From positions 1-22,757 of IMG/VR virus record IMGVR_UViG_3300044825_001413: a stretch of 22,757 bases of DNA; one strand, given 5' to 3'. This document shows positions 2,969-22,064 of the stretch, piece by piece. The position numbers and the translations under genes were made by a program. Each line of letters begins with the position of its first letter. Within the stretch, counting starts at the first letter, position 1. The stretch is from a virus. The notes beneath the pieces were generated by a model. That model worked only from the letters and a program-made list of their open reading frames with translations. It made no database searches and was not told the origin of the DNA.

Positions 2969-3569
2969 GACTCCGCCGGAGGGCGCGGAGCGTGTAAACG
3001 AGCCCGACCGAGAGGACGACCACGAGGGCGCCGAGGGATACCGCGAGGACGAGGAGCCCGTAGTTCGCGCCGCCGCCCTCGTCGCGGTCGAGGGGCACCA
3101 GAGGGGCGTCCGGCGGGCGATCGGCCACGGGCGGGGCCGCGGGCGGGCTCGGCGGGCCGCACCGCTCGCGGTCGTCGATCGGGCCCGGCGTCGGGTCGGG
3201 GATCCGGCAGACGCCGCCGGGGCACTCCTCGGCCGGGTCGTCGATCGGTGACGTCTCGGGAGGTACCCGATCGGATACCGTCGGGGGCTCGGCGGGGGGC
3301 ACGGTCTCGATCGGCTCGGCGGTCTGCCACGAGGTCGCGCCCGCGTGGTGAGCCGCCTCGTCGGGCGTCGAGCCGTACCCGTGCCGCTCGTTCCCGGGCC
3401 TCCCGGTCACGGCGGAGAACCCGCGGGGGGCTCCGGCGACCTCGGCCGGGTTCGTCTCGCGGAAGACGCCCGCGGGCTGCCGGTAGACGAGAGCGTGGTC
3501 GGGCTCCCGCGAGGCGCACCCCGCGAGGAGCCCGGCCACGAGGACGGGCGTCAGGAGGCGCACCGTCAC
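2964..3569 (-). CDS. Lipoprotein with C-terminal membrane anchor; unimolecular spanin candidate
   Basis: 201 aa from GTG 3569, which overlaps the preceding TGA by 4 bases. The N-terminus is a lipoprotein signal with lipobox LAGC and lipidated C18. Residues 19-165 are a Pro-rich, hydrophilic region that includes ECPGGVC (115-121) and another Cys at 137. Residues about 170-193 form one strong membrane helix, followed by the basic tail RALRRSP. A lipidated N-terminus in the outer membrane joined through a Pro-rich periplasmic span to a C-terminal inner-membrane helix is the architecture of u-spanins such as phage T1 gp11. These disrupt the outer membrane in the last step of lysis. It is longer than T1 gp11 (131 aa). 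The call rests on topology, not homology. One copy of the 10-bp word CGTTTACACG lies in the membrane-helix codons. Confidence 0.6.
   Translation of the reverse strand: MTVRLLTPVLVAGLLAGCASREPDHALVYRQPAGVFRETNPAEVAGAPRGFSAVTGRPGNERHGYGSTPDEAAHHAGATSWQTAEPIETVPPAEPPTVSDRVPPETSPIDDPAEECPGGVCRIPDPTPGPIDDRERCGPPSPPAAPPVADRPPDAPLVPLDRDEGGGANYGLLVLAVSLGALVVVLSVGLVYTLRALRRSP
2991..3000 (-). promoter_or_regulatory. Dispersed 10-bp motif, copy 1
   Basis: The minus strand reads CGTTTACACG. It lies within the spanin-like gene and encodes part of VYT with GTT for Val, an uncommon choice in this DNA. It shares a 15-bp stretch, CGTTTACACGCTCCG, with copy 2. Confidence 0.55.
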
Positions 3570-3973
3570 GCCTTCGCGATCGTGTCCGCGATCTTCGCCT
3601 CGGGCACCGGGCGCCCGTCCGACGTGACGAAGGGCTCGGCGTCGTACCGGGCGATCGCGTTCGTGACGACCCGCTTCACGCCGTAGGTCGCCCCGCCGAC
3701 GCCGGAGAGCCCGAGCAGGGCGTAGAGCAGGACCGCGAGGACGTCCGAGCCCGTCTGCGGGGGCACGGGCGGGACCGGCGCCTTCTCGCCCGTCGCGGGG
3801 TCCGTCTTCGTCAGGAGGCCCGCGTCGCGGTCGAGGAGCGTCTGCGCGGACTCGTTCGCCGCCCCGCCGACGCGGAGGAGCGGGCCCTTCTCGCCGACGT
3901 AGGACATACACGCCGCGAGCGAGAGGCACGCGACCGCGAGCAGAGCGAACAGGGGCAGGGTGCGGATCTTCAC
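3566..3973 (-). CDS. Lipoprotein with a second membrane segment, lysis-module candidate
   Basis: 135 aa from GTG 3973. I chose this start because GGAG lies 8 nt upstream and because it puts a signal peptide at the N-terminus. The lipobox LAAC places the lipidated Cys at position 22. Residues 23-75 are polar with a PVPPVPP stretch. A hydrophobic helix spans about 77-97 and is followed by a basic YGVKRVV. The C-terminal 35 residues are polar. The next gene overlaps by 4 bases and has the same two-anchor plan, so the pair probably acts together at the envelope, for example as holin-like or spanin partners. No family is recognised. Confidence 0.65.
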   Translation of the reverse strand: MKIRTLPLFALLAVACLSLAACMSYVGEKGPLLRVGGAANESAQTLLDRDAGLLTKTDPATGEKAPVPPVPPQTGSDVLAVLLYALLGLSGVGGATYGVKRVVTNAIARYDAEPFVTSDGRPVPEAKIADTIAKA

Positions 3974-4016
3974 GGTCGGTTCTCCGAGGGGCGTCACGCC
4001 CCGAACGTCCCCGATC

Positions 4017-4865
4017 CTATGATCCGGCATCCTTCCCGCGTCCCCGCCCGTCGAACAGGTTCCCGCCGTACGCCGCGAGACCGCCCTCGCAGAAGACGAT
4101 CCGCACGTCCCCCCGGTCCCCGATCCACTCCACGATCCCCCACCCGTTCGACCATCCCGTGAACGCCGCCGCCTTCAGGTGTTCCCACTCGCGGACGAGC
4201 GTCCGAAGGGCGGGGAGGCCGGTCGCGACGACGAGCCCGCGGCCGACCGCACGCCGGGCGTATTGCTGTCCCCGGTGAGTGTGCCCGTAGACGTTGGACA
4301 CGGCGAGTTCGTCCGCGTGCCGGGCCGCGTGGTGCTTCGGGTAGAAGATCCCGTGGTGGAACGCGAGCCCGCCGATCATGTACGGTTCCTGCTTGTCGCG
4401 GCCGACGTAGTTCCACCCGCGCTCGCGTAGGCGGAGCGCCTCGGGAACGCGAGGCGGGCGCCGCCGGTTCTTCGGGAGGTCTGCGCTCATGAGGTACCGG
4501 TCGAGCCGGTACTCGTGGTTCCCCTGAAGGAACTCGCGCCGTTTCCCGCTCCTGACGCCGTGCCGCCGGACGTTGCGACGGACGAACGGGTTCTCCGAGA
4601 GGGCGCCGTCGAACTCGTCGAGGAACTCGTTCCCCCCGTCGTACTCGTCCTCTAGCGTCACGCCCGCGTCGTCCTCGACGACCTCGTGCCTCGTCAGGCT
4701 CGCGAGGTCGAGCGTGTCGCCCATGAGGACGGCGGCCGGAACGCCGTCGCCCCCGAGGGGGAGCGTCCTCGCCGCCTGAAGGAACGCCCGCCACGTCGGC
4801 CGGTCGTGCCGGGGAGCGTGCGCGTCCGCGCCGAGCAGCGTCAGGCGGACGCCGCCCCTACTCAC
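4017..4865 (-). CDS. Calcineurin-like metallophosphoesterase
   Basis: 282 aa from GTG 4865, overlapping the preceding TGA by 4 bases. The five metal-binding blocks of the family are visible in order: D14-A-H16 (GADAHAP), GDTLD (49-53), GNHE (115-118), HHG (170-172) and GHTHR (194-198). The family hydrolyses phosphodiester or phosphomonoester bonds with a two-metal centre; phage members are usually assigned to nucleic-acid or nucleotide processing. No signal peptide or membrane segment is visible, so it should be cytoplasmic. Its position between a TM/coiled-coil protein and two lipoproteins is unusual for a DNA-repair enzyme. The substrate cannot be read from the sequence. Confidence 0.85.
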   Translation of the reverse strand: MSRGGVRLTLLGADAHAPRHDRPTWRAFLQAARTLPLGGDGVPAAVLMGDTLDLASLTRHEVVEDDAGVTLEDEYDGGNEFLDEFDGALSENPFVRRNVRRHGVRSGKRREFLQGNHEYRLDRYLMSADLPKNRRRPPRVPEALRLRERGWNYVGRDKQEPYMIGGLAFHHGIFYPKHHAARHADELAVSNVYGHTHRGQQYARRAVGRGLVVATGLPALRTLVREWEHLKAAAFTGWSNGWGIVEWIGDRGDVRIVFCEGGLAAYGGNLFDGRGRGKDAGS

Positions 4866-5197
4866 TTGCCGCCCTCGCCGCGCCGCAGAAGGTGATCCGT
4901 CAGGCGCTCGACGGAGACGCGGAGTGCCGCGTCTGCTCGGTCTCGCTCGTCATGCTCGGTTCGGATCATGTTCTTGATCTCGCCGAGCGAGTCGGTCAGG
5001 AGGCGGATCTCGCGGTCGAACGTCTCCCGCGTGACGCCCGACCCCTGCGCGGGGGCGATCTTGTCGGACCACGCCCTCGTCGTGAAGTAGACCGTCCCGC
5101 CGATGATCGCGAAGCACGCGATCACGGTCGCGAAGAACGGCCACCGGACGGCGAACTTGCTCGCCTCTCGGGCGACGGCGACGGTCGCGGTCGTCAT
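4862..5197 (-). CDS. Small TM plus coiled-coil protein, inner-membrane spanin/holin-accessory candidate
   Basis: 111 aa from ATG 5197, overlapping the preceding TGA (ATGA). One membrane helix spans about residues 19-40. It is followed by a charged helical region (about 55-105, RETFDREIRLLTDSLGEI and beyond) with heptad-like spacing. An N-terminal membrane anchor plus a helical ectodomain is the plan of inner-membrane spanin subunits (Rz-like) and of some holin accessory proteins. It lies just after the tail genes, a common place for lysis genes. No sequence family is recognised, and membrane orientation is not certain. Confidence 0.6.
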   Translation of the reverse strand: MTTATVAVAREASKFAVRWPFFATVIACFAIIGGTVYFTTRAWSDKIAPAQGSGVTRETFDREIRLLTDSLGEIKNMIRTEHDERDRADAALRVSVERLTDHLLRRGEGGK

Positions 5198-5634
5198 GCG
5201 TTCGGGCTCCTGCTCCCGCACCCGCACCCCTTCCGGGGCGCGACGAACGGGGCGACGGGCAGGGTCGAAGGAACGTATTCGGCGACCTTGGGAGGACGTC
5301 CCCTCGGGCGTTGCTCGATCGGCACGAACTCCCGCGTCCCCGAGAGGCGACCGCAGAGCGAGAGGGCGTGCCGGTACGCGACGCCTCGGAAGACGCGCGG
5401 CGCGAGGAACCGGCGGACCACGCCGAGGGGGCGGATCTTGCGGTAGTCCTCGGGCGTCAGGACGAGGATTGAGCCGTCGGGCCAGACCGTGCCGCGCTCG
5501 TCGCGCCACGGGGTCTCGACGACCGCGATGATCTGACGCGCCGGAGGGTCGGGTTCGGGCGCGAGGATCAGGCCGCGGGGCCCGTTGCGGTCCCCCGCGG
5601 CACGAACGTAGGCGTCGAGGTCGGCGGGGTTCAT
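5194..5634 (-). CDS. Hypothetical protein following the tail hub gene
   Basis: 146 aa from ATG 5634, overlapping the tail-hub stop by 4 bases (ATGA). There is no signal peptide or membrane helix. Residues 30-75 contain strand-like segments (RQIIAVVETPW, DGSILVLTPEDYRKI). The C-terminus is basic and ends with a Cys pair in KGCGCGS (136-142). Tight coupling to the tail hub gene suggests a virion or tail-assembly role, but nothing in the sequence identifies it. It could equally be the first gene of the lysis group. Confidence 0.7.
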   Translation of the reverse strand: MNPADLDAYVRAAGDRNGPRGLILAPEPDPPARQIIAVVETPWRDERGTVWPDGSILVLTPEDYRKIRPLGVVRRFLAPRVFRGVAYRHALSLCGRLSGTREFVPIEQRPRGRPPKVAEYVPSTLPVAPFVAPRKGCGCGSRSPNA

Positions 5635-8600
5635 GCGGGGTTCGGGGGAGCGGAGATCGCGGGGAACGTGAAGACGCACGAGGCGGGGTCGCACGTCGTC
5701 GGGGACCACGAGAACGAAAGCCCGGGAATCGGGTTGAGGGTTTGCTGGCAAGCGTACAGGCTCTCGCAGCAGTTCGTGATCGTGGGCTTCGACGACATTC
5801 CGAGCGCCCTCTGCGCGATCGCGGTCGCGAGGACGTTATCGTTCACGAACAGGCACGAGCAGAGCGTCCCGATCTTGTTATCGAGGCATTGAATCTCGGT
5901 CTGAACCGTGGTGAAGTTCGTCGAAACCGCCGTGAAAGCGTTCGTGATCGTCGCCAGCATCGCGGAGATCGACGAGATAAGGTTCGTCCCGTCGGCTCGC
6001 ACCTTTGCGAGTTCGGCGTCGAGCGCCGCGGAGGCGCCCGCGAGGCTCTGCCAGAGCGCCGCGACTTGACCGCAGAGCCAGCAAACGACGGCGAGGATCT
6101 CGTAGTTCGTGCCGCCGAGCCCCGCCACCTTGTCGCGGAGCGCCTTCGTCTGGTCCCCGTGGACGGTGATCGAGTTCGCGAACGCCGCGTTCGTCTGCGC
6201 CTGACCGACGCCGACGATCACGGTACAGGCGGGCGTACAGGTCACGGCGGGGAGGACGCCGTTCGCCGAGCAGGACTCCTGATCGGCGAGGGCGTCGGTC
6301 ACGGGGCCGCCGCCCGGCCCGGGCGTGACGACTTGATCGGAGCAGATCGAGGCGAGGCCCGGCTGCCCGCCGCTTGCCGTCGTGCCCTTCAGGGTCTCCT
6401 TTAGGCACTCGTAGAGCGAGAGCATCTGCTCCTGCGTCCGGCGGAGTTCGTCGGCGCGAGTCGTGTCGGCCGCCGCGGAGCGGGCCGCCTCGACGTCGAA
6501 CCCGCCGAACGAGGCGACCGTGCCGCAAAAGACGGTCGTCGTCTTCGCGACGAAATCCCACTCCGCCGCGATCTCCCAAAGGTTCGACGCCCGGGCGACG
6601 GCGGTACGGGGGCTCGGGTCGATCGTCACGATCCGGTCGAGGCGGGCGTAGTCCGTGTCGAGTTCGTTCGCGATCACGAACTCGCCTTGTTCGGCGATCG
6701 TGCCGTAGACGTCGAGGATCGCGTCGGCGATCTTCGTATACTCGGCGTCCTCGCTCGTGCCGCCGTAGTTCGGGTCGTCGATCACGAGGACGCGCCGCAC
6801 GCCCGGGTCGCCGTAGCGGGGAGCGCCGCCACCGTTCCAGAGCGCCGGATCGTAGGAGTACGCCGTGCCGCGGAACCCGGTCGAGGGGACGCGGAGCATC
6901 GGCACCGCGTCAGGGGCGCCGGGATCGACCGTGAACTTGGGGAGGTCGAGTTCGACGTCGTGCGCGACCGTCATCCCGCCGTCGTCGCACGCCGCCTCGC
7001 CGGGCTTCACGGCGGGCCGGTCGAGCGTGACCTTGTGGTACGTCGCGTTCGGGGTTCCGGTGACGGTCCCGAGCGAGTCGTCGATCATCTTCTCGATTCG
7101 GGCGTGAGCCTCCTCGATCGTGAACCGTGCGGGGTCGCTCGGGTCCGCGTTCACGATCCGCGCCGTGACGCACGCGACGTTCCCGACACCGACCGTCGGG
7201 TCCGTGATGTTGAAGGACCGGAAGACCTCGGAGAACCCGTTCCCGTCCGCCTCGTCCTCGACGATCTGAAACGTATCGCCCGGCGCCGGGCCCGCGCCCT
7301 GCCACGCCACGGCGTCGAGCGTGATCTGCCCGCCCGCCCCGTTGCCGTTGCTCTTGATCGTGTACCGGTTCCCGTTCTCCGCGCCAGACGTGAAGACGAG
7401 GACGTTCGGCGCCCACTCGTTCGTCTCGGAGACGAGCGCCGCGGTCGGGACCACGATCATTTCCCCGCCGCCGCCGACACCCGTCCCGTTGACGACGCCC
7501 GTCGCCCTCGCCTTGAACCGGTCCGAGGAGTTCCAGAGGGCTTCCAGAGCGGGATCCCACGCCGAGGAGAGGTCGCCCGCCGAGAGCCGGATCGTCGAGA
7601 TCGGGGGGCGGTACTGCCCGCGGATCAGGACCGCCGTGTAGTTCGCCCGCGGCAGGGTCGAGATCCGCCCCGTGACGTGCCGCGTCGCGAGGGCGATCGT
7701 CGTCGCCGCGCCCGCGCTCCGGTCGAGGAACGCCCACTCCTGCGTCTCGGGGTCCACGTCCCACCCGTAGGAGGGCGCGTACCGGAGGAGCGCCTCGATC
7801 GCGTCATGGACGTTGCCGGAGATCGTGATCGAGGGCTTCACGGCGTCGAGCGCCGCGACGCCCGCGGGGATCACGGTCCCCGAGGCCGGGGCCGCCCCGA
7901 CGTCGCGGAGCCCGCCGGAGCCCGCCTCGTGGTTCGCGACGATCCACTCGATGATCTGCCCGAGCGTCTTCCCGCTCCGGTCGGCGCGGTACTGCGCGTG
8001 TCCGGTCGGGAGGTTGAACGAGACCGTCCCCTCGTTCGTGTCGGGATCGACGATCGGGACGTCCTGCGCGAGTTCCTTCCGCGAGCAGACCTCGTACTCG
8101 CTTCCCTCGGTCGAGGGCGTCAGGTTCCCCGTCGCCGCGCGGAGGAACCCCGAGGCGAGCCAGACGCCGTTTCGGATCACGGCGACCTCGGCGCCGGGCA
8201 CGAGGGCGGGCTCCGTGAACCGGTTCAGGTCTCGGAGGACGACGCTCGCCTCGGTGCCGTAGGACCGCCTCGCCTTCACGAGAACGATCCCGAGCGCCGA
8301 GAACTCGCTCTCCGAGAGATAGCGTCCGTTCACCACGAGGAACGTGCCCGTCCCGAGCGTGCCGGGCCCCGCGTACTCGTCGGCGAAATCGCGGAGAATG
8401 AGGTTGTCGTAGATCACGTCGTCGTCGAGCGAGTTCGCGTCGAGGCCGAGGATCACGCCGCCCGGCCCGCCGAGCCGAGCCGCGTCCGTGTCCGAGAACG
8501 TGAACTCCTCGCTCGCGACGCGAAGCACGAGATCGACCGCGCCGTCGGACTCCTCGGCCGACAGGTAGAGGGCGACCCCCGCGTTCATGTTCGCGGGCGT

Positions 8601-8990
8601 GACGACCGAGAGGTTCGTCCACGCGATCAGGTCCGTAAAGGCACCCGCGACGCGCCGACGGAGCCGGATCCGGGGCGTGCCGATGTTGGAGTCGAGGGTC
8701 GCGTAGTACCCGTTCTGCCCGTCGTCCGAGCATCGCACGGCGAGTTCGGCGTAGCGTCCGGCTCCCGCCGCGTTCTTCCAGACGAGCGAGACGTTCGCCG
8801 CGTAGTTCGCCCTGCCGGGGCGGGCGTCGGCGAGGAGGCGCCACGCGGAGCCGACGCTCGCGTGCGCCCGCCCGGCGTTCGCCCAGATCGGAGGCGGGTA
8901 CGTCGCGTTCCCCTCGACGCGGGCGAACCCGTGATCCGTCCACGGGTCGCCGTTCGTCCCGGTGAAATCGGTCAGGGAGAAATCCGCCAC
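5631..8990 (-). CDS. Tail hub/tip protein with N-terminal lectin-like domain and Cys-rich C-terminus
   Basis: 1119 aa from GTG 8990; GGAG lies 9 nt upstream, and those 9 nt are almost entirely one copy of the 10-bp motif. Residues 1-205 look like a concanavalin-like beta sandwich ending in YDNLILRDF. Residues about 210-480 (VVLRDLNRFTEPALVPG, then NVHDAIEALLRYAPSYGW) resemble the beta-rich hub domains of gpD/gp27-type tail proteins. Residues about 500-850 are further tail-like beta domains. The last 257 residues are helical with about 15 cysteines, including CWLC, CSC, CC and two C-x3-C. It follows the tape measure and a minor tail gene, where distal tail, hub and receptor-binding proteins are encoded. 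The lectin-like domain may bind host glycans. Confidence 0.75.
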   Translation of the reverse strand: MADFSLTDFTGTNGDPWTDHGFARVEGNATYPPPIWANAGRAHASVGSAWRLLADARPGRANYAANVSLVWKNAAGAGRYAELAVRCSDDGQNGYYATLDSNIGTPRIRLRRRVAGAFTDLIAWTNLSVVTPANMNAGVALYLSAEESDGAVDLVLRVASEEFTFSDTDAARLGGPGGVILGLDANSLDDDVIYDNLILRDFADEYAGPGTLGTGTFLVVNGRYLSESEFSALGIVLVKARRSYGTEASVVLRDLNRFTEPALVPGAEVAVIRNGVWLASGFLRAATGNLTPSTEGSEYEVCSRKELAQDVPIVDPDTNEGTVSFNLPTGHAQYRADRSGKTLGQIIEWIVANHEAGSGGLRDVGAAPASGTVIPAGVAALDAVKPSITISGNVHDAIEALLRYAPSYGWDVDPETQEWAFLDRSAGAATTIALATRHVTGRISTLPRANYTAVLIRGQYRPPISTIRLSAGDLSSAWDPALEALWNSSDRFKARATGVVNGTGVGGGGEMIVVPTAALVSETNEWAPNVLVFTSGAENGNRYTIKSNGNGAGGQITLDAVAWQGAGPAPGDTFQIVEDEADGNGFSEVFRSFNITDPTVGVGNVACVTARIVNADPSDPARFTIEEAHARIEKMIDDSLGTVTGTPNATYHKVTLDRPAVKPGEAACDDGGMTVAHDVELDLPKFTVDPGAPDAVPMLRVPSTGFRGTAYSYDPALWNGGGAPRYGDPGVRRVLVIDDPNYGGTSEDAEYTKIADAILDVYGTIAEQGEFVIANELDTDYARLDRIVTIDPSPRTAVARASNLWEIAAEWDFVAKTTTVFCGTVASFGGFDVEAARSAAADTTRADELRRTQEQMLSLYECLKETLKGTTASGGQPGLASICSDQVVTPGPGGGPVTDALADQESCSANGVLPAVTCTPACTVIVGVGQAQTNAAFANSITVHGDQTKALRDKVAGLGGTNYEILAVVCWLCGQVAALWQSLAGASAALDAELAKVRADGTNLISSISAMLATITNAFTAVSTNFTTVQTEIQCLDNKIGTLCSCLFVNDNVLATAIAQRALGMSSKPTITNCCESLYACQQTLNPIPGLSFSWSPTTCDPASCVFTFPAISAPPNPA

Positions 8991-8999
8991 GTTTACACG
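8990..8999 (+). promoter_or_regulatory. Dispersed 10-bp motif, copy 2, in the ribosome-binding region of the tail hub gene
   Basis: The plus strand reads cgtttacacg. In the mRNA its complement occupies the spacer between the GGAG Shine-Dalgarno and the GTG start at 8990, overlapping the start by one base. The intergenic gap is only 15 bp, so the motif and Shine-Dalgarno fill it. Confidence 0.6.
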
Positions 9000-9005: not shown

Positions 9006-9704
9006 TCAGGGAGGGGTCGGCTCGTGCGCCGAGGCGACGAGGGGCTCCGCGACGCCGACGAGATAATACCGCACGTCGGGACGCCAGAACCCCGCGGCGG
9101 GGTCTCCGCTCGGGGGCGAGCCCTTGCTCATGCGGAGGAACTGCGTCGAGGGGTAGGCGAGGCAGACGTCCACGAGGTACCACGAGGACGTGACAGAGTA
9201 CCCCGTCGGGACGGTCACGGTCACGTCGCCCGCGGTGCGGGCGGAGATCGCCGAGACGAAGCCCTCGCCCGTGGTCGGGTTGCGGAGCAGGACGTATCGC
9301 CCGGCCGCCGTCGTCCACGAGCCCCCGAGGGCGCCGTGCGTGATCGTCCGCACGCCCGCCGCGTAGGAGCCGCCGGTCACGGCGCCGACCTTCGCGTCGT
9401 CCGGGCAGTACGAGAGGAACTGAAGCCCGTCGGCCGCGAGCCGGTGAAGGTTGCGCCCAAGGTAGGCGAGGTCGATCTCGGTCGCCGCGATCCGCGACAG
9501 GTCCGACCGCGCCGCGACGGGGGCGAGTTCGCACGCGACCTCGACGTCGATCCGCACGTTCGGCGAGTCGGGGTTCAGGGAGCCGTATGCGCGGAGAAGC
9601 CCGGAGCCGAACCCCTCGGTCGTCGTCTGCTCGGTGGGCCAGAACCCGACCACGTTGTCGCGGAGACGGATCCCGCCGTAGAAGCACGCGACGTGCCCGC
9701 TCAT
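9006..9704 (-). CDS. Minor tail protein
   Basis: 232 aa from ATG 9704, which overlaps the tape measure TGA by 4 bases. It begins MSGHVACFYGGIRL and is predicted mainly beta, with many Gly/Thr/Val strands and a few scattered Cys. There is no signal or membrane segment. Its place directly after the tape measure gene is where distal tail proteins are encoded. The short length and beta content fit a distal tail or tip-accessory protein. The specific family is not recognised, so the name comes from position. Confidence 0.7.
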   Translation of the reverse strand: MSGHVACFYGGIRLRDNVVGFWPTEQTTTEGFGSGLLRAYGSLNPDSPNVRIDVEVACELAPVAARSDLSRIAATEIDLAYLGRNLHRLAADGLQFLSYCPDDAKVGAVTGGSYAAGVRTITHGALGGSWTTAAGRYVLLRNPTTGEGFVSAISARTAGDVTVTVPTGYSVTSSWYLVDVCLAYPSTQFLRMSKGSPPSGDPAAGFWRPDVRYYLVGVAEPLVASAHEPTPP

Positions 9705-12112
9705 CGGCCACCCCCAAGGTTGCGGACGTTCTCCGACAGGCGCCGAACCTCGGCGCGGATCTGCTCCTGCTCGCGGCGGAGGCTCTCGACGGCGGACGAC
9801 ACGAGATCGGTCACGGCGCGGAAGCCCGTCGCGGTCTCCTCGGCGAGCCGCGTCACGGCGTCGCCGACACGCTGGAACTCGGTCGGGAGGGTCGCGACGT
9901 TCTCGGAGATCGTGCCGATCCCCTCCTCGACCTTGCCGACCGCCTCGCCGACCGCGGTCGTCGCCTCGGCGGTCGTCGCCGTCGCCTCGCTCGCCTTCTC
10001 GGCCGCGCCCTTCGCCTCCTCCGCCTTCGCCTTCGCCTCGTCGGCCGCCGCCTTCGCCTTGTCGCCGATCGTGGAGCCGTCGAGGCCGGGCAGACCCGGG
10101 ATCGAGGGGGAGCCCGGGAGGCCCGGCAGACCGGGCAGGGGGAGCCCGCCCGGCATCTGCGGCATCGGAGGCAGGGGCGGGAGGCCCGGCAGGGGGGCGG
10201 GCTTCGGGGCCGCCTTCTGCGCCGCCTCGGCCGCCTTCTGCGCCCGCCACTCGCTCTCGGTCGGACCGTCGGCCGAGAACATCCGGGTCTCCTTGACCCG
10301 AACGCCCTCGCCCCACCGACTGAAATACTTCGGGAGCCGCCGCTTCTTGCGGAACTCGCGCTCCTTGTCCGTCATGCCGTCGTCGCGGATCTTGCTCTGC
10401 TTCTCCTTCTCGGCGGTCTGATCCTTCTCGATCTCGGCGATCCGCTTCTGGTAGAGCGCCTCGGCCTTCGCCGCGTCGGCGCCCGCCTTCAGGAGATCGA
10501 CCTTCTCGCGCTCGGCGTCGAGCCGCCTCCGGGCCGCCTCGTCGGCCGCCGAGAGGTTCTCGATCTCGCGCTCGATCTCGTCGTTTACACGGGACCGAGC
10601 CTCGGCCTCGTCGTCGGCGATCTCGGCGAGTTTCGCCTCTAGGCGGAGCCGGGCGAACGGGTCGCCCTTCTCGTCGGCCGCCTTCGCCTCGGCGCGGGCC
10701 TCCTCGCGGCGGGCGTCGAACTCGCCCATCCCACGAGTACGCTTGCGGAGGTCGAGCGCCCCGCGCTCGTCGGTCCACCGCTCGGCGAACTCGGTCAGGC
10801 GCCGGGCCACCCGCTCGCGGTCCTCGTCGATCTGCTTCTGCCGCTCGGCCGCCGCCTCGGCACGCTTGCGAGCCGCGATCTCCCGCTCGATCTCGTCGGC
10901 GATCTTGCCCTGCCCGGTCGCCCGGAGTTCCTCGATCGTGCGGAGTTCGCTCGCGTACTTGCGGTCGTCCTCGGAGAGCCGGAGGACGCGGAGCGTCTCG
11001 CGCCCGCGGTCGGCGATCGCCTCGACCCGAGCCTTCTCCTGCTTCGCGATCTGCTCCTGCTTCTCCTGCTCGCCCTTATCCTCGGCCGCCTTCTTCTGCT
11101 CGCGGTACCGAGTGCGGGCCTCCTCGACGAGAGCCCGCGCCGCCCGGATCTGCTCGACCGTGCCGTTCTTGAACGCCTCCTGAAGAACGCCGAGTTCGGT
11201 CGCGATCGCCTTCTCCTCCTCGCTCGCTCGGAGGGACTCGGCCGCCTTCGCGATCTTCTGATTCAGAGAGGCGACCCGCTCGCGGTCCTCGCCGCTCTGC
11301 TCGGCGAGGAGCCCGGCGATCTCGGCCTCGCGAGCCGCGATCTCCGCGTCGATCGCGAGGATCGACCTCTTTTGCTGCGCCGCCGCCTTGTCGAGATCCT
11401 TCGCCTTGTCGGTCAGGATGCCCCGCCGCGTGGGGTCCGTAGAGCCCTTCGCCTCCTCGCGGACCCGGGCCGCCTCTCGGAGCGTGCGCTCGCGGGCCGC
11501 CGCCATGCGGTCGCGGGCCGCTCGATCGCTATCGAGCCCCTTCCGAGCCGAGTCGAGGTCGAGCCCGCGCTCCTCCTCTCGGACCGCTCGCTCGGGGTCG
11601 CGACCCTCCTCGGCCGCCCGGGCGCGGGTCGCCGCCACTCGCTCGCGGTCCCACGCCTCGCGGGCGCGGTCGGCCGCCGACGCGATCCGGTCCCCGATCG
11701 CCGAGGCGAACGCCTTCGCCCGCTTCTCGCCCTGCTCCATCTTCGCGACGATCGAGCCGATCAGCGTCCCGACGCCCGCGAGAGCGAGCCCGACGGGCCC
11801 GCCCGCCGCGAACCCCGCCGCGAGGCTCGTCGAGACCCGGAGCGTCGCACGCCCCATGCTCTCGCCCGCGGACTCGGCCGCCGCCATCCCCGCGACGACA
11901 CCCGTCAGGGCGCCGCCCGCGAGTTTGCGGAAGCCCTGAAAACTCTTGCCGATATCCGTAATCCGCTTCCCGAGGGGGACGACCTTCTCCGCGGCATCCG
12001 ACGCCGCCGCCCCGACGGCGCGGGTCTCCGCCGCCGCCTTCCGCATGACGTCGCCGGAGAGGTTCTTTGCCCGGACGACGATCTCTAGGGTCTTCGTGCT
12101 TTCGTCGCCCAC
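9701..12112 (-). CDS. Tail tape measure protein
   Basis: 803 aa from GTG 12112, with GAGGAG 9 nt upstream. The N-terminus (1-85) is a typical tape-measure start with the small-residue stretch KLAGGALTGVVAGMAAAE. A hydrophobic, Gly/Ala-rich segment follows at about 95-125. Residues about 130-620 are an almost continuous Ala/Arg/Glu coiled coil. Residues about 637-678 are Pro/Gly-rich with short collagen-like GLPGLPG steps. The C-terminus returns to coiled coil. By the usual scale of about 0.15 nm per residue, the tail would be roughly 120 nm long. No lysozyme or peptidase domain is visible. The position after the tail chaperone and before the minor tail genes is standard. Confidence 0.9.
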   Translation of the reverse strand: MGDESTKTLEIVVRAKNLSGDVMRKAAAETRAVGAAASDAAEKVVPLGKRITDIGKSFQGFRKLAGGALTGVVAGMAAAESAGESMGRATLRVSTSLAAGFAAGGPVGLALAGVGTLIGSIVAKMEQGEKRAKAFASAIGDRIASAADRAREAWDRERVAATRARAAEEGRDPERAVREEERGLDLDSARKGLDSDRAARDRMAAARERTLREAARVREEAKGSTDPTRRGILTDKAKDLDKAAAQQKRSILAIDAEIAAREAEIAGLLAEQSGEDRERVASLNQKIAKAAESLRASEEEKAIATELGVLQEAFKNGTVEQIRAARALVEEARTRYREQKKAAEDKGEQEKQEQIAKQEKARVEAIADRGRETLRVLRLSEDDRKYASELRTIEELRATGQGKIADEIEREIAARKRAEAAAERQKQIDEDRERVARRLTEFAERWTDERGALDLRKRTRGMGEFDARREEARAEAKAADEKGDPFARLRLEAKLAEIADDEAEARSRVNDEIEREIENLSAADEAARRRLDAEREKVDLLKAGADAAKAEALYQKRIAEIEKDQTAEKEKQSKIRDDGMTDKEREFRKKRRLPKYFSRWGEGVRVKETRMFSADGPTESEWRAQKAAEAAQKAAPKPAPLPGLPPLPPMPQMPGGLPLPGLPGLPGSPSIPGLPGLDGSTIGDKAKAAADEAKAKAEEAKGAAEKASEATATTAEATTAVGEAVGKVEEGIGTISENVATLPTEFQRVGDAVTRLAEETATGFRAVTDLVSSAVESLRREQEQIRAEVRRLSENVRNLGGGR
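10582..10591 (+). promoter_or_regulatory. Dispersed 10-bp motif, copy 3
   Basis: The plus strand reads cgtttacacg. It is inside the tape measure gene, where the coding strand spells Arg-Val-Asn as CGT GTA AAC. GTA for Val stands out against the GTC/GTG used around it. Confidence 0.55.
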
Positions 12113-12994: not shown

Positions 12995-13420
12995 TCACTC
13001 GCTCATCATGCGCTCCCACGAACACCACTCGTAGACCGTCCCGTCGGCCGCGACGTTCAGGAGGCCGATCCGGTCGTCGCCGCGGGCCTTCCGCTCGGCG
13101 ACGTAGGCGTCGATCAGGCGAGCCGTCTCCTCGGGCGTCCGCTTCGCCGCCGCCGCCGCCTCGGCCTCGCGGCGGGCGCTCTCGGCGCGGGCGCGGGCCG
13201 CCTCGGCGCGGGCGCGGGCGTTGCGGGCGTCGAGGCGCTCGCGGAGGGCCGCCTCGCCGAGCGCCGTCAGCATCGGCTCGCCCGAGCCCGTGCGCTCGAC
13301 GAGGAGGAGGGCGACGAGGCTCTCGACCGTCTTCGCCTTGCGGGAGAGGTCGGCGCCGCCCTTCTGGATCTTGCGGAGCGTGTCGGTCTGGTTGTCGGAG
13401 AGGTACAGGTTCGTCGTCAT
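12995..13420 (-). CDS. Winged-helix-like regulator candidate with coiled coil (short, internally initiated form)
   Basis: 141 aa from ATG 13420. Its own promoter-like sequence (13464-13491) and a GGAA-type Shine-Dalgarno precede the ATG. Residues about 8-55 have a pattern like MarR/PadR-type winged helices (SDNQTDTLRKIQKGG, then TVESLVALLLVER, then LTALGEAAL). Residues about 60-95 are an Ala/Arg/Glu helix, and the C-terminus has WCSWE. The frame is shared with a longer upstream start at 13744. The DNA-binding role is inferred from pattern only. Its place between tail genes, with separate promoters, suggests a moron or a late regulator. Confidence 0.6.
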   Translation of the reverse strand: MTTNLYLSDNQTDTLRKIQKGGADLSRKAKTVESLVALLLVERTGSGEPMLTALGEAALRERLDARNARARAEAARARAESARREAEAAAAAKRTPEETARLIDAYVAERKARGDDRIGLLNVAADGTVYEWCSWERMMSE

Positions 13421-13744
13421 GGCCGTTGCTTCCGTTGTGGGGTTGAACTCGATCACGGGAGGGATCATACCCCGCCGCGAGGCGGGGTCAAGGGGAATCC
13501 GTCGGGCCCCGACGGGGGTCTGAAGGTTGAACCCGGTCAGGGCGTCCCAGAGGACCGCGGAGTAGGCGGTCTGAAGGTCGGCCGCGGGGATGTTCCCCTC
13601 GGCCCGGCGGTCGGCCGCCGCCTCGTCGGAGGAGTCGATCGCGGAGAGGATCTCCGAGCGGACCTGATAGGCCGGGAGGTTCGCGATCGAGGAGAGGAAC
13701 CGGTCCGCGAGGCGCGAGGCGAAGGTCTTCGTCGTGGTCGTCAT
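12995..13744 (-). CDS. Long in-frame form of the moron gene, or an upstream gene fused by loss of its stop
   Basis: 249 aa from ATG 13744, with GGAG 9 nt upstream and a sigma70-like promoter at 13772-13800. Residues 1-85 (TTTTKTFASRLADRFLSSI, then PAYQVRSEILSAIDSSDEAAADRR) read like a real small helical domain. Residues about 87-108 are the translation of the downstream promoter and leader, after which the frame continues unbroken into the 141-aa protein. Either this is a nested gene with two start points, or two genes whose separating stop is missing. In GC-rich DNA open frames can persist by chance, so the join may not be functional. No family is recognised for the N-terminal part. Confidence 0.5.
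   Translation of the reverse strand: MTTTTKTFASRLADRFLSSIANLPAYQVRSEILSAIDSSDEAAADRRAEGNIPAADLQTAYSAVLWDALTGFNLQTPVGARRIPLDPASRRGMIPPVIEFNPTTEATAMTTNLYLSDNQTDTLRKIQKGGADLSRKAKTVESLVALLLVERTGSGEPMLTALGEAALRERLDARNARARAEAARARAESARREAEAAAAAKRTPEETARLIDAYVAERKARGDDRIGLLNVAADGTVYEWCSWERMMSE
13413..13430 (-). repeat. Start-region direct repeat, copy A
   Basis: The 18 bases gtcgtcatggccgttgct are identical to 13737-13754. Both copies contain the reverse complement of an ATG start with the same upstream leader (AGCAACGGCC) and the same following Thr-Thr codons. The wider promoter-leader regions also align, so one cassette is probably a duplicate of the other. Confidence 0.8.
13464..13491 (-). promoter_or_regulatory. 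Sigma70-like promoter P2 with palindrome in the spacer
   Basis: On the minus strand: -35 TTGACC (13491-13486), 16-bp spacer, -10 TATGAT (13469-13464). The ATG at 13420 is 43 nt further on. The spacer is filled by an inverted repeat (arms 13470-13476 and 13481-13487, ccccgcc/ggcgggg) that overlaps the -35 end. It could be an operator or a DNA/RNA hairpin. TATGAT is a striking exception to the local base composition. Confidence 0.7.
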
Positions 13745-13754
13745 GGCCGTTGCT
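13737..13754 (-). repeat. Start-region direct repeat, copy B
   Basis: Exact 18-bp match to 13413-13430, covering the ATG at 13744. Confidence 0.8.
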
Positions 13755-13771
13755 CCGTGGTTGACGCCCAG

Positions 13772-13800
13772 ACTGTACCCCACCACGCGGGGGTCGTCAA
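13772..13800 (-). promoter_or_regulatory. Sigma70-like promoter P1
   Basis: On the minus strand: -35 TTGACG (13800-13795), 17-bp spacer, -10 TACAGT (13777-13772). The ATG at 13744 follows after 27 nt. Short inverted arms acccc/ggggt (13777-13781 and 13790-13794) flank the spacer, similar to P2. An AT-richer stretch (ATTTTCTG) precedes the -35. A strong terminator hairpin lies just upstream, so P1 would be the first promoter after transcription of the head and tail-tube genes ends. Confidence 0.65.
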
Positions 13801-13814
13801 CAGAAAATCCGGCG

Positions 13815-13824
13815 CGTGTAAACG
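13815..13824 (-). promoter_or_regulatory. Dispersed 10-bp motif, copy 4
   Basis: The minus strand reads CGTTTACACG. It is intergenic, between the terminator hairpin (13828-13857) and the P1 -35 box (13800). It is the one copy next to a recognisable promoter, and its TTCGTTT flank also gives the hairpin a modest T-rich tail. Confidence 0.6.
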
Positions 13825-13827
13825 AAG

Positions 13828-13857
13828 GCGGGGCCCGGACTTACGCCCGGGCCCCGC
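13828..13857 (-). terminator. Strong terminator-like hairpin after the major tail protein gene
   Basis: Perfect 11-bp arms 13828-13838 (gcggggcccgg) and 13847-13857 with an 8-nt loop, starting 21 bp after the stop codon of the major tail protein gene. In the transcribed direction it is followed by CTTCGTTT, only partly T-rich. Placement before promoter P1 supports a terminator separating two transcription units. Confidence 0.7.
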
Positions 13858-13878
13858 GCGAGACCGAACCCCGCGCCG

Positions 13879-15033
13879 TCAGTAGACGCCGATCTGGATC
13901 TCGTCGTCCCCGCCCGTGATCGTCGCGGAGACGAACTCGACGGGCACCTTCAGGACGACGTGACCGTTCCGGCTCTCCTGCTCCGTGCCGGAGTTCTGGA
14001 CGGTCGGGAAGGCGAACGTGAGCCGCTTCCCGGTGCCGGAGCCGTACTCGTACGAGATCCGCGCCGTCGTCCCGTTGCGGAGCAGGGCGTACCAATCCTG
14101 CTCGCTCGCGAGGTTGTCCTCGGGGTCGATCTCGCCCGTCGCCTCGCGGGTCGGCCGGACGATCGAGAGGACGCCGTTCGTCGCGTTCGCGCTCGGCCGG
14201 GGTTCCAGCACGTTCCCGAGGTCGAACGAGAACGCCGAGAGGATCGGCGAGAACGAGCCGATCTTGAAGCCCACCCCCTGCCACGCGGGCGGGGTGATCT
14301 CCTGATACGTCGGCGAGGGCAGGGCGACGTCGGTCGTCGATTCCCAGACGCCGAGGAACTCCCACGAGAAGAACCCGGGCTCGCCGACCCGCTTCTCGAT
14401 CTTGACGGTCCCGCGGGCCCCGACGAGAAGGTGACGCTTCCCGTCCTGATAGAGCCCGATCGTCACGGAGGGCGGGTCCGAGGAGATCGGGCGGTACTCC
14501 CACCCCTGCGAGGCGGTTGGGGTTCCGCCGGTCGTCGCCGTCGCCCCCGACGTGCCGCCCGTGACGACCTCGCCCGAGACGAAGACGCCCGTCAGGACGA
14601 CGAACCGGAGCGTCGAGACGCCGTTCGCGTGGTCCCCGACGACGCGACCCGTCGCGCTCGACGTGCCGCCCGTGATCGTCTCGCCCCCCTGAAACGGGCC
14701 GCTCGCGATCGCGCCGATCGCGATCGTCGAGATCGCCGTCACGTCGAGCCCGCACGCCCGGGCGAGGACGTCCCACTCGGGCTTCGTCGCGACCGCGCCC
14801 GACCCCTTGATCTCGGACCGGAAGGTGATCCGGCCGAGGCGCCGACCGTGGATCGCCGCGAGGGGCGTCAGGCGGGGGCGGGCGGGGGCCCGCTTGTACC
14901 GCGCCTGATCGGGCGAGAACTTCGCATCGTAGACGAGGACGGCGCAATCGGACGCGGAGAGGGTCTCCGCCGTGCCCTCGGTCACTTCGACCTTGGCACC
15001 GATCACGCTCTCGCGGTCGAGGATCACGGTCAC
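13879..15033 (-). CDS. Major tail (tube) protein with inserted repeat domain
   Basis: 384 aa from GTG 15033, with GGAGG 10 nt upstream. The N-terminus (ILDRESVIGAKVEVTEGTAETL) is a typical tail-tube beginning, and the body is beta-rich with the late segments TVQNSGTEQESRNG and PVEFVSATITGGDDEIQIGVY. Two related segments with the core GExVTGGTSxAT occur at about 113-134 and 149-172. They look like an inserted surface domain, which would explain why the protein is longer than a minimal tube subunit. It lies between the tail terminator gene and the tail chaperone region, as expected for the tube gene of a long non-contractile tail. There is no sign of a separate sheath gene. Confidence 0.85.
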   Translation of the reverse strand: MTVILDRESVIGAKVEVTEGTAETLSASDCAVLVYDAKFSPDQARYKRAPARPRLTPLAAIHGRRLGRITFRSEIKGSGAVATKPEWDVLARACGLDVTAISTIAIGAIASGPFQGGETITGGTSSATGRVVGDHANGVSTLRFVVLTGVFVSGEVVTGGTSGATATTGGTPTASQGWEYRPISSDPPSVTIGLYQDGKRHLLVGARGTVKIEKRVGEPGFFSWEFLGVWESTTDVALPSPTYQEITPPAWQGVGFKIGSFSPILSAFSFDLGNVLEPRPSANATNGVLSIVRPTREATGEIDPEDNLASEQDWYALLRNGTTARISYEYGSGTGKRLTFAFPTVQNSGTEQESRNGHVVLKVPVEFVSATITGGDDEIQIGVY

Positions 15034-15052: not shown

Positions 15053-15538
15053 TCAGGGGTTGCCGTCCGACGGGTCGGCCCGCGTCGTCCGGTAGTCGAT
15101 CTCGACGACGGACTCTACCGTACAGAAGGGATCAGAGGGGACGCCGATCGCCGAGGACGACGAGACGAGCCGGAGGGCGATCCACCCCGGGATCGCCCCG
15201 AGCGCCGCCAGAGTCGAGGCGGACTCGACGCACCGCTCGACGTCGGCGAGGAGGCGGTTCGCGATCGTGCCGGGGTCGGGGTTCTCGCCGTAGGCGATCC
15301 GGTCGATCGCGACGATCGTCAGGCGGAGGCGCCGATTGTAGGTCTCGCGGGTCCGGCGGTCGAGCGTCTCGGAGAGGTCCGAGACCGCGATCGCCGGGAA
15401 CGAGAGGGCGGTCTCGGCGGGGAACGCCCACCGGTAGACGTTCGCGACGTCGGACGAGTACCCGCCCGCGGTCGTCATGCCGCCGAGAGCGGAGACGAGC
15501 GCCGCGACGATCTGCTCCCTGACGGACTCACTCGGCAT
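15053..15538 (-). CDS. Tail terminator protein
   Basis: 161 aa from ATG 15538, overlapping the end of the upstream gene by 11 bp. It begins with a helix (SESVREQIVAALVSALGGM). Strand segments typical of small tail-terminator/gpU-like proteins follow (SFPAIAVSDLSETL, NRRLRLTIVAI, ESVVEIDYRTT). These proteins cap the tube and set the head-proximal tail end. Position directly before the major tail protein gene and length both fit. Sequence identity within the family is low, so the call rests on pattern and order. Confidence 0.75.
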   Translation of the reverse strand: MPSESVREQIVAALVSALGGMTTAGGYSSDVANVYRWAFPAETALSFPAIAVSDLSETLDRRTRETYNRRLRLTIVAIDRIAYGENPDPGTIANRLLADVERCVESASTLAALGAIPGWIALRLVSSSSAIGVPSDPFCTVESVVEIDYRTTRADPSDGNP

Positions 15539-16148
15539 CGGTCAGACCCTCCCGCACGGACCGGTCGAGAACCCTATCGCGAGCCGGGGCGTCCGCGTCC
15601 CACGCCTCGCGGAACCCGAGGCGGGGCGGGACCGTGACGGACCGGACGAGGAGGAAGATCGGGATCTCGCGGGCCCGCTTCCCTTGCCCCTTCCGCACGA
15701 AGACGCATAGGCGCCCGTCGTCGAGGCGACGAACGAACGTGATCCCCGGCCACGAGCGGGCGTACCCGCGGACCTGTCCGGCCGCCCGCGTCTTCGCCGC
15801 GTCGAGGGGGATCGTCAGGTACTTCGCCCGTTTCGGCGTGACCGTCCCGCCGAACTCCTGAAGGCGGGCGTAGGGGGCCCGCGTGTAAACGCTGCCCGCC
15901 CACTCCTCATCGGACGCCCCGGGGAGTTCGGCCGCTTGGAACGAGTTCGCGAGCGTGCCGCTCCGCGAGCGGAGCCCGGCCGGGCCCGCCCGCCGCATGA
16001 GCAGGGGCGGGACGCGCATCGCGAACCCCTGAAGGTAGGCGAGGAGGTTCGCTCGGAGCCGGGCCGCGATCCGCGGGCCCGCGCGGTCGAGCGCCGACGC
16101 GACCTCCTCGGGCGTCAGGGCGCGGTCGGGGGCGGGGCTCTGCGTCAC
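15528..16148 (-). CDS. HK97 gp10-like tail completion/neck protein
   Basis: 206 aa from GTG 16148, overlapping the preceding TGA by 4 bases. The core RSGTLANSFQ (62-71), then YARLQEFGGTVTPKRAKYLTIPL (93-115), is the recognisable signature of HK97-gp10/virion-morphogenesis proteins that join head and tail. A middle segment, ITFVRRLDDGRLCVFVRKGQ, and the late FREAWD also fit. It lies between the connector and tail terminator genes. The codons for VYT (87-89) contain one copy of the dispersed motif. Confidence 0.8.
   Translation of the reverse strand: MTQSPAPDRALTPEEVASALDRAGPRIAARLRANLLAYLQGFAMRVPPLLMRRAGPAGLRSRSGTLANSFQAAELPGASDEEWAGSVYTRAPYARLQEFGGTVTPKRAKYLTIPLDAAKTRAAGQVRGYARSWPGITFVRRLDDGRLCVFVRKGQGKRAREIPIFLLVRSVTVPPRLGFREAWDADAPARDRVLDRSVREGLTDAE
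15882..15891 (-). promoter_or_regulatory. Dispersed 10-bp motif, copy 5
   Basis: The minus strand reads CGTTTACACG, inside the gp10-like gene. It is read as Val-Tyr-Thr with GTT for Val, the same reading as copy 1. Confidence 0.55.
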
Positions 16149-17215: not shown

Positions 17216-17268
17216 CGGTAGGGTCTCCTCGATCCTCGGTTCGGTTGCGGGTCAGGGGGTGCGAGGGA

Positions 17269-17288: not shown

Positions 17289-17302
17289 CCCCCCGCGAGC
17301 GA

Positions 17303-18487: not shown

Positions 18488-18505
18488 GGGTGGAAACCCT
18501 CCGGG

Positions 18506-19549: not shown

Positions 19550-19559
19550 GGGGGCGAGC

Positions 19560-22064
19560 CTACTCGGGAGAGGGGATCTCCTCGGGCGCCGCCGAACACC
19601 GGCAGTTCACCACGAGGGAGGCGGGCGCCGCGAGGTCGCCCGGGAACCGGAGCGTCGCGCCGTCCACGAACGAGGAGCCGATCGGGACGGTCTTCCCGTC
19701 GATCTCGACGTGCGCCTCGCGGACCGCCGCGTCGCCCGCCGTGATCCACGTCGTCGCCTTCACGCCCGACCGGAGCATCGTCTCCTGCCGGACCGCGTTC
19801 ACGGTCTGCGCGGACTCGGTGCGGGCGATCGTGAGCGAGCGCCGCTGCTCGACCGCCCACCGCTCCTCGATCCGCTCCTGAATCCCGCGCACGTCGTCGC
19901 CCGCGTCGAGGCCCTTCGCGACCGCCTGACGCACGTCGCCGATCGTCTTCTCGGCGACGCCGCGGACGAGGATCTGCTTCTTGCGGATCAGTTCGACGAG
20001 GGCGGGGTCGCCCTGCGGAGCCTGAACGAACGCGCCGCCGAGTTCGGGCTTGATCCCCGCCTCGGCGTCGGCCGCGACCTTGCGGTACACGGGGTCGAGC
20101 ATCTTCACGAGGCGGTCGGACCACGCCGCCTTCCGGCTCGCGATCCACTCGTCCCACGTCTGCCGCGAGGGGGCGCGGGCGGACCGGTCCGCCCAGAACG
20201 CCCGGATCTCGCCGTAGACCTCGCGGAGCCACGAACGGTATCGGAGGCCGATCCGGCTCTCGCCCTGATCCATAACCTTCGCGATCCCGCGCCACCGGGC
20301 GAGGCGCCCCTCGCGGCCGGGCACGGGCTCGGCCCGGTTCTCGGCGGGGGCGTTTACACGCGGGGGCTCCGCGGGCGGGGGCGGGGGCTTCCCTCCGCCC
20401 GCGGGCGGAACCGGCGGAGGGGCCGGGGGTTCGGGAGGCTTCTCCTCCGAGAGCGTCTCCGCGGGCCCGACGATCGCCGTCGCCTGATCGGGCGTGAGAG
20501 GGAACGCGACGAGGAGGATCTGCTTCGCGGACTCCGGCGGGAGTTCCTTCGCGACGACCGCCTTCACCACGTCCACGAGAGAGGCGACTTGCGCCCCGTT
20601 GTACGCGGTCTGCGCGGGGTTGACGCCCGCCGCCGCGGTCTCGGCCGCGACGGGCTTCCCCGCGCCGCCGTCGCCCGTGGGAGCGGGGACGGGCGGGGGC
20701 GTGCCGGGCCCGGCGCCCGCGCCGGACTTGCCCGAGCCCGCCGCCTTCTCGTCCTGCGGGATCGCGTCGGGGTTCGTCTTCGGAGCCCCGCCCTCGCCCG
20801 CGGGGACGTCGCCCGCGCCCATGCCGGAGAGGAGACCGGCGGAGACGTCCGGCAGGGGGGCGAGCCCGGCCGCGACCGTGCCGACGTCGCCGCCCTCGAC
20901 CTTCGGCATCCCGAGGTCGAACTTGTCGGAGACGACGTTCAGGGGGTACCCCATGCGGGCCGCCCGCTCGGCGACCTCCCACCGGGTCGTGACGTCATCG
21001 CGGAGCGCCTCGACCGAGGCGAGGTCGAACGCGACGCCGAGGTTCGTATCGACGGTCGCGAACGTCTTCGTCGAGAGGGCGTCCTCGACCACGCGGGCGA
21101 TCGGGAGGATCGCATCCTCCCAGAGCGTGCGCCGCGCCGCCCGCGCCGTCGCGTAGGAGACGTCGCCCTGCTCGGCGAGGTAGTACGGGGGCACGCCGTA
21201 GACGGTCGCGATCTGCTTCCGCGAGAGCCCGCGGGTCTCGATGTACGCGAGATCCTTCGCGTTCACCGTGACGGGGAGGTACTTCAGGCCGCCCTCTAGG
21301 ACGGCGACCTTCCCGGCGTTGCGGTCCCCCTTGTGCCGGTCCTCCCACTCCTGACGCATTTCCTTCCGCTGCTTCGGCGTCAGGGCGCCGTCGGTCGTCA
21401 GCACGCCGCCCGGGTCCGCGCCGTTCGCGTACAGAGCGTCCGTGAACCTCTGCGCCCGGAGGTCGATCTTGTACCCGAGGCGGGCCGCGTCGAGGGGCGA
21501 GAGCCCGCGGGTCGGCTCGTAGGGGTTGAAGAACCGAAGGTGCGTCACGGAGTCGAGGGGGAACGCCTTCTCTCCCGTGGAGAGTTTGACCTTCCACCCG
21601 ATCTGCTTCTTCGTCTCGCGGTTCTCGTCGGGCTCGACGCACCGGCCGGGGACCGCCCAGAGGCGCTCGGGCATCTTGCCCGGCCGCGTCGGGTTCTCGT
21701 TCGCGTCCGTCGAGAGGAGGAAGACCTCGCCGTCGAGGAGCCACCACGTCAGGAGGGCGTCGAGGAACTCGCGCCGCGACTGAAGGGGGTTCGGCTTGCG
21801 GAGCAGGGACGCGAGCGCCCCCTTCTCCCCGCCCGCCGTGTCCTTGACGGTCTTCCCGTCCCACGTCGCCGCGAGCGTGATCTGCGCGAGGTTGCGCGAG
21901 ATCAGGGAGACGCACCGGTAGACCGCCTCGTGCGAGGAGTAGGGGCGCGAGTCGTCCCCGGCCTCCGCCGTGAGCGTGCGCCGCACCGCGTTCGCCCACG
22001 AGGGATCGTGGTACCCGCGCTCGGGGAGGCGGGGCCGGAACAGGCGGGCGAGCGGGTTCCGCAT
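19560..22064 (-). CDS. Portal protein fused to MuF-type head morphogenesis domain
   Basis: 834 aa from ATG 22064, with GAGG 10 nt upstream. Residues 1-380 are an HK97-type portal (SSHEAVYRCVSLISRNLA near 43-60, RFFNPYEPTRGLSPLDAARLG, YGVPPYYLAEQGDVSYATA). Residues about 380-480 are a Gly/Pro linker. A segment NGAQVASLVDVVKAV, then ILLVAFPLTPDQA, is also seen in other portals. A second Pro-rich linker (about 540-570) contains a copy of the dispersed motif. Residues about 580-834 are MuF-like, ending in ARTESAQTVNAVRQ, HVEIDGKTVP and VVNCRCSA. In many phages portal and MuF are separate genes; here one product would carry both into each of the 12 portal subunits, unless it is processed. Confidence 0.9.
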   Translation of the reverse strand: MRNPLARLFRPRLPERGYHDPSWANAVRRTLTAEAGDDSRPYSSHEAVYRCVSLISRNLAQITLAATWDGKTVKDTAGGEKGALASLLRKPNPLQSRREFLDALLTWWLLDGEVFLLSTDANENPTRPGKMPERLWAVPGRCVEPDENRETKKQIGWKVKLSTGEKAFPLDSVTHLRFFNPYEPTRGLSPLDAARLGYKIDLRAQRFTDALYANGADPGGVLTTDGALTPKQRKEMRQEWEDRHKGDRNAGKVAVLEGGLKYLPVTVNAKDLAYIETRGLSRKQIATVYGVPPYYLAEQGDVSYATARAARRTLWEDAILPIARVVEDALSTKTFATVDTNLGVAFDLASVEALRDDVTTRWEVAERAARMGYPLNVVSDKFDLGMPKVEGGDVGTVAAGLAPLPDVSAGLLSGMGAGDVPAGEGGAPKTNPDAIPQDEKAAGSGKSGAGAGPGTPPPVPAPTGDGGAGKPVAAETAAAGVNPAQTAYNGAQVASLVDVVKAVVAKELPPESAKQILLVAFPLTPDQATAIVGPAETLSEEKPPEPPAPPPVPPAGGGKPPPPPAEPPRVNAPAENRAEPVPGREGRLARWRGIAKVMDQGESRIGLRYRSWLREVYGEIRAFWADRSARAPSRQTWDEWIASRKAAWSDRLVKMLDPVYRKVAADAEAGIKPELGGAFVQAPQGDPALVELIRKKQILVRGVAEKTIGDVRQAVAKGLDAGDDVRGIQERIEERWAVEQRRSLTIARTESAQTVNAVRQETMLRSGVKATTWITAGDAAVREAHVEIDGKTVPIGSSFVDGATLRFPGDLAAPASLVVNCRCSAAPEEIPSPE
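20351..20360 (+). promoter_or_regulatory. Dispersed 10-bp motif, copy 6
   Basis: The plus strand reads cgtttacacg. It lies in the Pro-rich linker of the portal-MuF gene, read as Arg-Val-Asn (CGT GTA AAC) on the coding strand, the same reading as copy 3. The flanks are entirely G/C-rich. Confidence 0.55.

Follow-up and report, generated by a model that had tools for sequence, protein, structure and literature searches.

We found that a 10-bp word, CGTTTACACG, repeated within a fragment of phage DNA, occurs widely across phages and is linked to a single protein family, the SprT-like proteins of PHROG 6361. The fragment is a linear virus record (IMG/VR record IMGVR_UViG_3300044825_001413; 22,757 bases, 71.7% GC), hereafter the window, by which we mean this stretch at its full length. 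The word is selected as DNA and is a real phage regulatory site; it probably serves as an operator- or stoperator-like site of a phage-encoded, autoregulated repressor, likely the SprT-like protein itself. The link to a protein family goes beyond the original prediction, made from the letters of the window alone, which had pointed out the repeats and offered three suggestions for their role.

The word is selected as DNA in the window

The original prediction listed six exact copies of the word, and we recovered every one at the same coordinates and on the same strands, three per strand (Table 1). It had also held that such a word should occur far less than once by chance. Assuming independent, identically distributed bases, 0.016 copies are expected in the window, and 100 dinucleotide shuffles of the window produced none. 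A search of the window for one-mismatch variants likewise found none. The word accounts for six of the nine TTTA/TAAA occurrences in the window, in line with the earlier impression that it supplies most of them, and copies 1 and 2 do have 15 bp in common (CGTTTACACGCTCCG).

Four of the six copies are coding, two spelling V-Y-T (GTT TAC ACG) and two R-V-N (CGT GTA AAC G); the other two are intergenic. The coding copies had been said to use rare Val codons, and GTT and GTA together indeed make up only 27 of the 533 Val codons in window genes. Within the window gene set, both V-Y-T peptides and two of the three R-V-N peptides are encoded by the word. A codon-preserving shuffle had been suggested as a check on the idea that selection favours the DNA word and not the protein. 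In 3000 synonymous-codon shuffles that kept the proteins, coding copies averaged 0.025 and never exceeded two, compared to the four observed. Because the shuffles give far fewer copies, we conclude that selection acts on the DNA word.

The word recurs in many unrelated phages

To fetch further contigs, IMG/VR was scanned with a 14-base extension of the word. Many of the fetched contigs repeat the 10-mer, with up to 12 copies per record and nearly always none of a reversed-word control, and one of them matches Microbacterium phages. The word is the most over-represented word (10–26 copies) in Arthrobacter AZ, Microbacterium EH and Streptomyces phages, as well as in many IMG/VR contigs. Counts reach 22 in Cen1621, 15 in Iter, 11 each in Zeta1847 and Percival, 26 each in JackieB and LazerLemon, 23 in Marky and 10 in Emotion, with no copy of the reversed word in any of these; phiMiGM15, a Microbacterium phage with a layout similar to that of Cen1621, contains none of the word. 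Several proteobacterial phages are enriched in a palindromic form, GTTTAAAC (R5C 17, Venkman 34, Alexa 8), which PT1, Arya and Persinger contain in low number (4–7). Strands are used unevenly in some carriers (Cen1621 18/4, Emotion 10/0).

Site conservation, another check that had been suggested, was assessed in relatives of other word-bearing phages. Word copies were kept in most comparisons, typically at 70–85% (e.g., 7/10, 10/13, 10/12, 4/5), versus 0.12–0.26 for composition-matched 8-mers. The word is conserved, as a putative binding site, among many unrelated phages and is not peculiar to the window.

Some genomes carry variants of this pattern. Two (G001 and G010; L079, L059) have a relaxed word family (CGTTTACACG, CGTTTAGACG, CGTTTATACG), with six exact copies inside 1.6 kb adjoining the SprT-like gene. 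Another (G050; L133-L135) has a palindromic form, CGTTTAAACG, at six sites in its 11–26 kb part, one of them adjoining the SprT-like promoter, and the asymmetric CGTTTACACG scattered outside that part, which suggests two site classes. PT1 and Arya (L205-L208) contain a second repeated near-palindrome, ACAATNATTG.

The word co-occurs with SprT-like proteins

Comparing word-rich contigs all against all turned up a single family shared by 22 of them, the SprT-like protein of Cen1621 gene 48 (PHROG 6361), and by phmmer this was the sole family found in 22 of the 22 word-bearing genomes compared. Part of these genomes had been selected via the SprT-like gene, and therefore a word-chosen set and control phages are the cleaner tests. 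Among records of at least 30 kb fetched by the word pattern, not all of them independent lineages, PHROG 6361 was present in 8/8 with at least five copies and in 0/11 with one copy. Nine control phages were selected through matches to portal, capsid or tail genes; of these, eight had neither word nor gene and one, Burkholderia phage Mica, had both, with three CGTTTAAACG sites, one of them ~12 bp upstream of its SprT-like gene. The SprT-like gene is the only gene that the proteobacterial word-bearing phages have in common with the actinophages.

Searching phages with the SprT-like protein returned 163 records. Besides Cen1621 we sampled 18 SprT-positive phages, of which seven repeat CGTTTACACG, three are enriched in GTTTAAAC, three have GTTTAAAC in low number and five have neither. 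No convincing replacement word emerged for the word-less phages; CGTCTACG has 13 copies in one of them, Bachaco, and is common (11 copies) in phiMiGM15 too, which contains none of the word.

Sites lie on promoters, including that of the SprT-like gene

Of 32 word-bearing genomes, 18 have the word in the 100 bp preceding the SprT-like start, against about two expected. There it occupies the spacer of promoter-like elements, directly follows the −10 or sits beside the −35; in PT1, Arya, Persinger and Alexa it is found at −24 to −28 upstream of the gene. Persinger and Mica, which have only four and three sites in all, each have one at the SprT-like gene. Repressor operators typically vary in this way in where they overlie a promoter.

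More generally, sites fall on promoters and in intergenic or gene-edge places in Cen1621, Iter and JackieB, and so do copies 2 and 4 in the window, the remaining four being coding. In annotated phages, 17/28, 14/27 and 12/38 sites are at least partly intergenic, versus 11, 8 and 6% of the genome. In Cen1621, nine word copies sit within TTGCGYGTGYGTTTACACGCGTGTA, a promoter-like, operator-in-promoter unit that recurs ahead of about nine genes. Read on the minus strand, the final base of copy 2 in the window is base 1 of the GTG start of a tail-region gene (5631-8990, −), an arrangement that JackieB repeats as GGAG-CGTGTAAAC-start.

Word copies in host genomes cluster in prophages

Of the 43 word copies in the genomes of Arthrobacter sp. 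EPSL27 and Pseudarthrobacter siccitolerans (~9 Mb), 42 belong to prophage-like clusters, and PHROG 6361 lies in or next to three of these clusters.

The linked protein has a putative SprT-like fold and a basic zinc ribbon

The linked protein matches phrog_6361 with an E-value of 1.4e-51. Against the Pfam SprT-like family PF10263, Cen1621 gp48 scores 26.4 bits, above the cut-off of 25.6, and the protein of another carrier (G029) scores 17.5, below it. In 21 aligned sequences the HExxH motif is nearly invariant, and the fully invariant positions include residues of a basic C-terminal zinc-ribbon end (KKQ.TRMLK..C..CG...R); we would guess that this end reads the word. One aligned protein (G041, L152; 10948-11481, −) is without HExxH in a phage that retains the word. 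That genome contains a second PHROG 6361 match 2 kb off (13372-13881), and a Mesorhizobium relative (L229, 10001-10579) has HQLTH replacing HExxH.

For a predicted model (predicted local distance difference test score, pLDDT, 87), the best VIA match was human SPRTN (6mdw; Z 7.2 over 102 residues), where a Z below 8 may mean only a common arrangement. Foldseek found no PDB match at E ≤ 0.001, and a profile search of PDB sequences with the SprT-like alignment gave only weak, apparently unrelated matches. Nine diverse SprT-like proteins, once aligned, differed too much for the alignment to be used in scanning the collection.

A putative autoregulated repressor and its alternatives

We propose that the word is the binding site of an autoregulated transcription repressor encoded by the phage. 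Copies at promoters would act as operators, and scattered copies would act like stoperators or reservoir sites, helping to keep the phage genome silent; coding copies might act on elongation. The likely binder is the PHROG 6361 protein, with its putative metalloprotease fold and conserved basic C-terminal zinc ribbon; it would recognise GTTTA(A/C)AC and thereby repress transcription. This proposal draws on the enrichment of the word, its selection at the DNA level, its co-occurrence with the SprT-like gene, its conservation, its presence on the SprT-like promoter region and its clustering in prophages. Among the roles suggested in the original prediction, stoperator-like repressor sites fit best, except that the strict orientation of stoperators is absent from the window.

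Several observations weigh against this proposal. The window, a 22.8-kb fragment of its phage, contains no SprT-like gene, and the nearest relative found (L259, an 11.4-kb fragment with a TerL 55% identical) has neither the word nor the gene. Five SprT-positive phages are without the word: Bachaco (L187-L189), Brahms (L190-L191), Dismas, MW2 and PSA20. Two word clusters in the host genomes (G051 C4, 1366-1385 kb, L235 and L236; G052 C29, 2-12 kb, L237), both near contig ends, are on contigs without any PHROG 6361 match. No strand bias is seen in the window (3/3), in JackieB (15/11) or for the 10-mer in Iter (8/7). Several word-bearing phages may be strictly lytic, and many of the compared genomes are akin, so the counts are not independent.

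SprT-like proteins are, moreover, usually regarded as DNA-protein crosslink proteases and not as repressors, which leaves room for a different phage regulator, such as a helix-turn-helix (HTH) protein, to bind the word, with the SprT-like gene merely a conserved member of its regulon. HTH or DNA-binding genes lie close to the SprT-like gene in many carriers (Cen1621 46-47, Iter 44-45), with those of JackieB, 43 and 47, elsewhere. We nevertheless regard this as unlikely: no other family comes near 22/22, proteobacterial phages have only the SprT-like gene in common with actinophages, and even Persinger and Mica, with so few sites, place one at that gene. It is also distinctly unlikely, in our estimate, that the sites mainly dock or load an SprT-like protease onto phage DNA, be it to repair DNA-protein crosslinks, to clear the DNA of bound host proteins or to counter host defence, autoregulation being secondary. 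Retention of HExxH in most members, the match to SPRTN and the occurrence of sites on both strands and within genes would fit such a role, but sites concentrate at promoters and gene edges (17/28, 14/27, 12/38) and the G041 phage retains the word with a member that has no HExxH.

A word that a phage carries in six exact copies and on both strands could also be a site for a host factor, whether nucleoid, partition or Chi-like, and a nucleoid or partition site was one of the roles first suggested. We reject this reading as very improbable because word copies in two host genomes cluster in prophages; the same word is, in addition, shared by phages of Arthrobacter, Microbacterium and Streptomyces and missing from the Microbacterium phage phiMiGM15. 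A packaging or recombination signal, the remaining suggestion, found no support. That the few copies in the window reflect chance or a codon or amino-acid effect has a negligible probability given the dinucleotide shuffles, the retention in relatives and the independent word-bearing phages, and the synonymous-codon shuffles reject both chance and codon bias.

If the repressor proposal is correct, it provides a target site and a regulatory role for a widespread phage family annotated as protease or of unknown function, and the word becomes a simple genome signature that flags carriers in metagenomes. It also offers a candidate for the missing repressor of AZ and EH phages. Two reports on these phages (PMC8758107, PMC7302621) state that no repressor could be identified and that Powerpuff forms stable, homoimmune lysogens. 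A metalloprotease-like phage protein of the SprT type may be a novel type of switch for phage genes. More tentatively, and leaning slightly against it, we raise a broader idea: that PHROG 6361 SprT-like metalloprotease-fold proteins form a new class of phage repressors that bind a specific DNA sequence and regulate themselves, with GTTTA(A/C)AC sites genome-wide and with carriers among the phages of both Actinobacteria and Proteobacteria, and that they supply the immunity repressor still missing for Arthrobacter AZ and Microbacterium EH phages.

Gene content of the window

All assigned window genes are on the minus strand. On the head side they comprise the 3' part of TerL, a portal-MuF gene, a protease-like gene, an HK97 major capsid gene and head-tail genes; the rest are tail genes, a tape-measure-like protein, lipoprotein and holin-like genes and a Cas4-like nuclease. 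We infer that the window is the structural-arm fragment of a word-bearing phage, and an SprT-like gene is predicted in the missing part. Searches of IMG/VR with the major capsid, portal, 1119-aa tail-region and Cas4-like proteins returned no close relatives, and a TerL search gave six distant fragments with no clear word enrichment.

Three sigma70-like promoters were found in the first 20 kb of the window, versus 0.3 expected, and one adjoins copy 4. The hairpin beside that copy is a very stable GC hairpin whose CTTCGTTT tail runs up to and into the word. An open reading frame (ORF) at 4017-4865 (−), adjoining two lipoprotein-like ORFs, has metallophosphoesterase-like motifs (GDTLD, GNHEY); family searches gave it no name. 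Rfam and tRNA scans of the window gave no matches.

Table 1. Copies of the word and adjacent elements in the window.
Feature	Position	Strand	Context
Word copy 1	2991-3000	-	Coding, near 3' end of small lipoprotein-like gene 2964-3566 (-); V-Y-T
Word copy 2	8990-8999	+	Intergenic, between Shine-Dalgarno-like GGAG (9003-9000) and GTG start
Word copy 3	10582-10591	+	In coiled-coil tape-measure-like ORF 9701-12112 (-); R-V-N
Promoter-like TTGACG-17-TACAGT	13772-13800	-	14 nt downstream of copy 4
Word copy 4	13815-13824	-	Intergenic, flanked by terminator-like hairpin and sigma70-like promoter
Hairpin, 13-pair, terminator-like	13828-13857	-	Immediately upstream of copy 4; z = -3.5 for the fold of the region
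Word copy 5	15882-15891	-	In DUF6441-like gene 15528-16148 (-); V-Y-T
Word copy 6	20351-20360	+	In portal/MuF-like gene 19560-22064 (-); R-V-N

Comparison with known systems

We found no published description of the word in open papers, and recognised none that connects SprT-like proteins with repression in phages; the available part of the discussion of EH phages in PMC7302621 does not mention the word. That source does describe other short repeated motifs in actinophages, namely the intergenic repeats of Microbacterium EC/EI/EG phages and the SAS/ESAS repeats, which differ from the word in sequence and are intergenic, mostly upstream of starts.

The closest parallels are repressor systems. 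Cluster A mycobacteriophages (the L5 and TipsytheTRex immunity repressor; PMC9283540) have 20–30 near-identical short sites genome-wide, located at early promoters, in short gaps between genes or at gene edges, and some carriers of the word are, similarly, temperate. Unlike the 13-bp asymmetric stoperator, however, the word is 10 bp long and near-palindromic, many copies lie within genes, and orientation is biased in some carriers only, the strict orientation with transcription being absent from the window (3/3). Its carriers include proteobacterial phages, and the protein linked to it has a putative metalloprotease fold of the SprT type; no L5-type HTH immunity repressor family is common to the word-bearing phages compared, the window itself being a fragment. 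The linked proteins resemble SprT/SPRTN metalloproteases in the HExxH of most members, the C-terminal zinc ribbon, the PF10263 match of Cen1621 gp48 and, more tentatively, the 6mdw match. They differ from SprT/SPRTN, as described in the papers searched, in their putative sequence-specific DNA sites and autoregulatory operator, and in at least one carrier the member has lost HExxH. The repressor-stoperator system of R4-type Streptomyces phages (cluster BD; PMC10276819), likened here by description and not by site sequence, has an identified repressor, unlike the word system, and resembles it in having the repressor at an early promoter and many sites across the genome.

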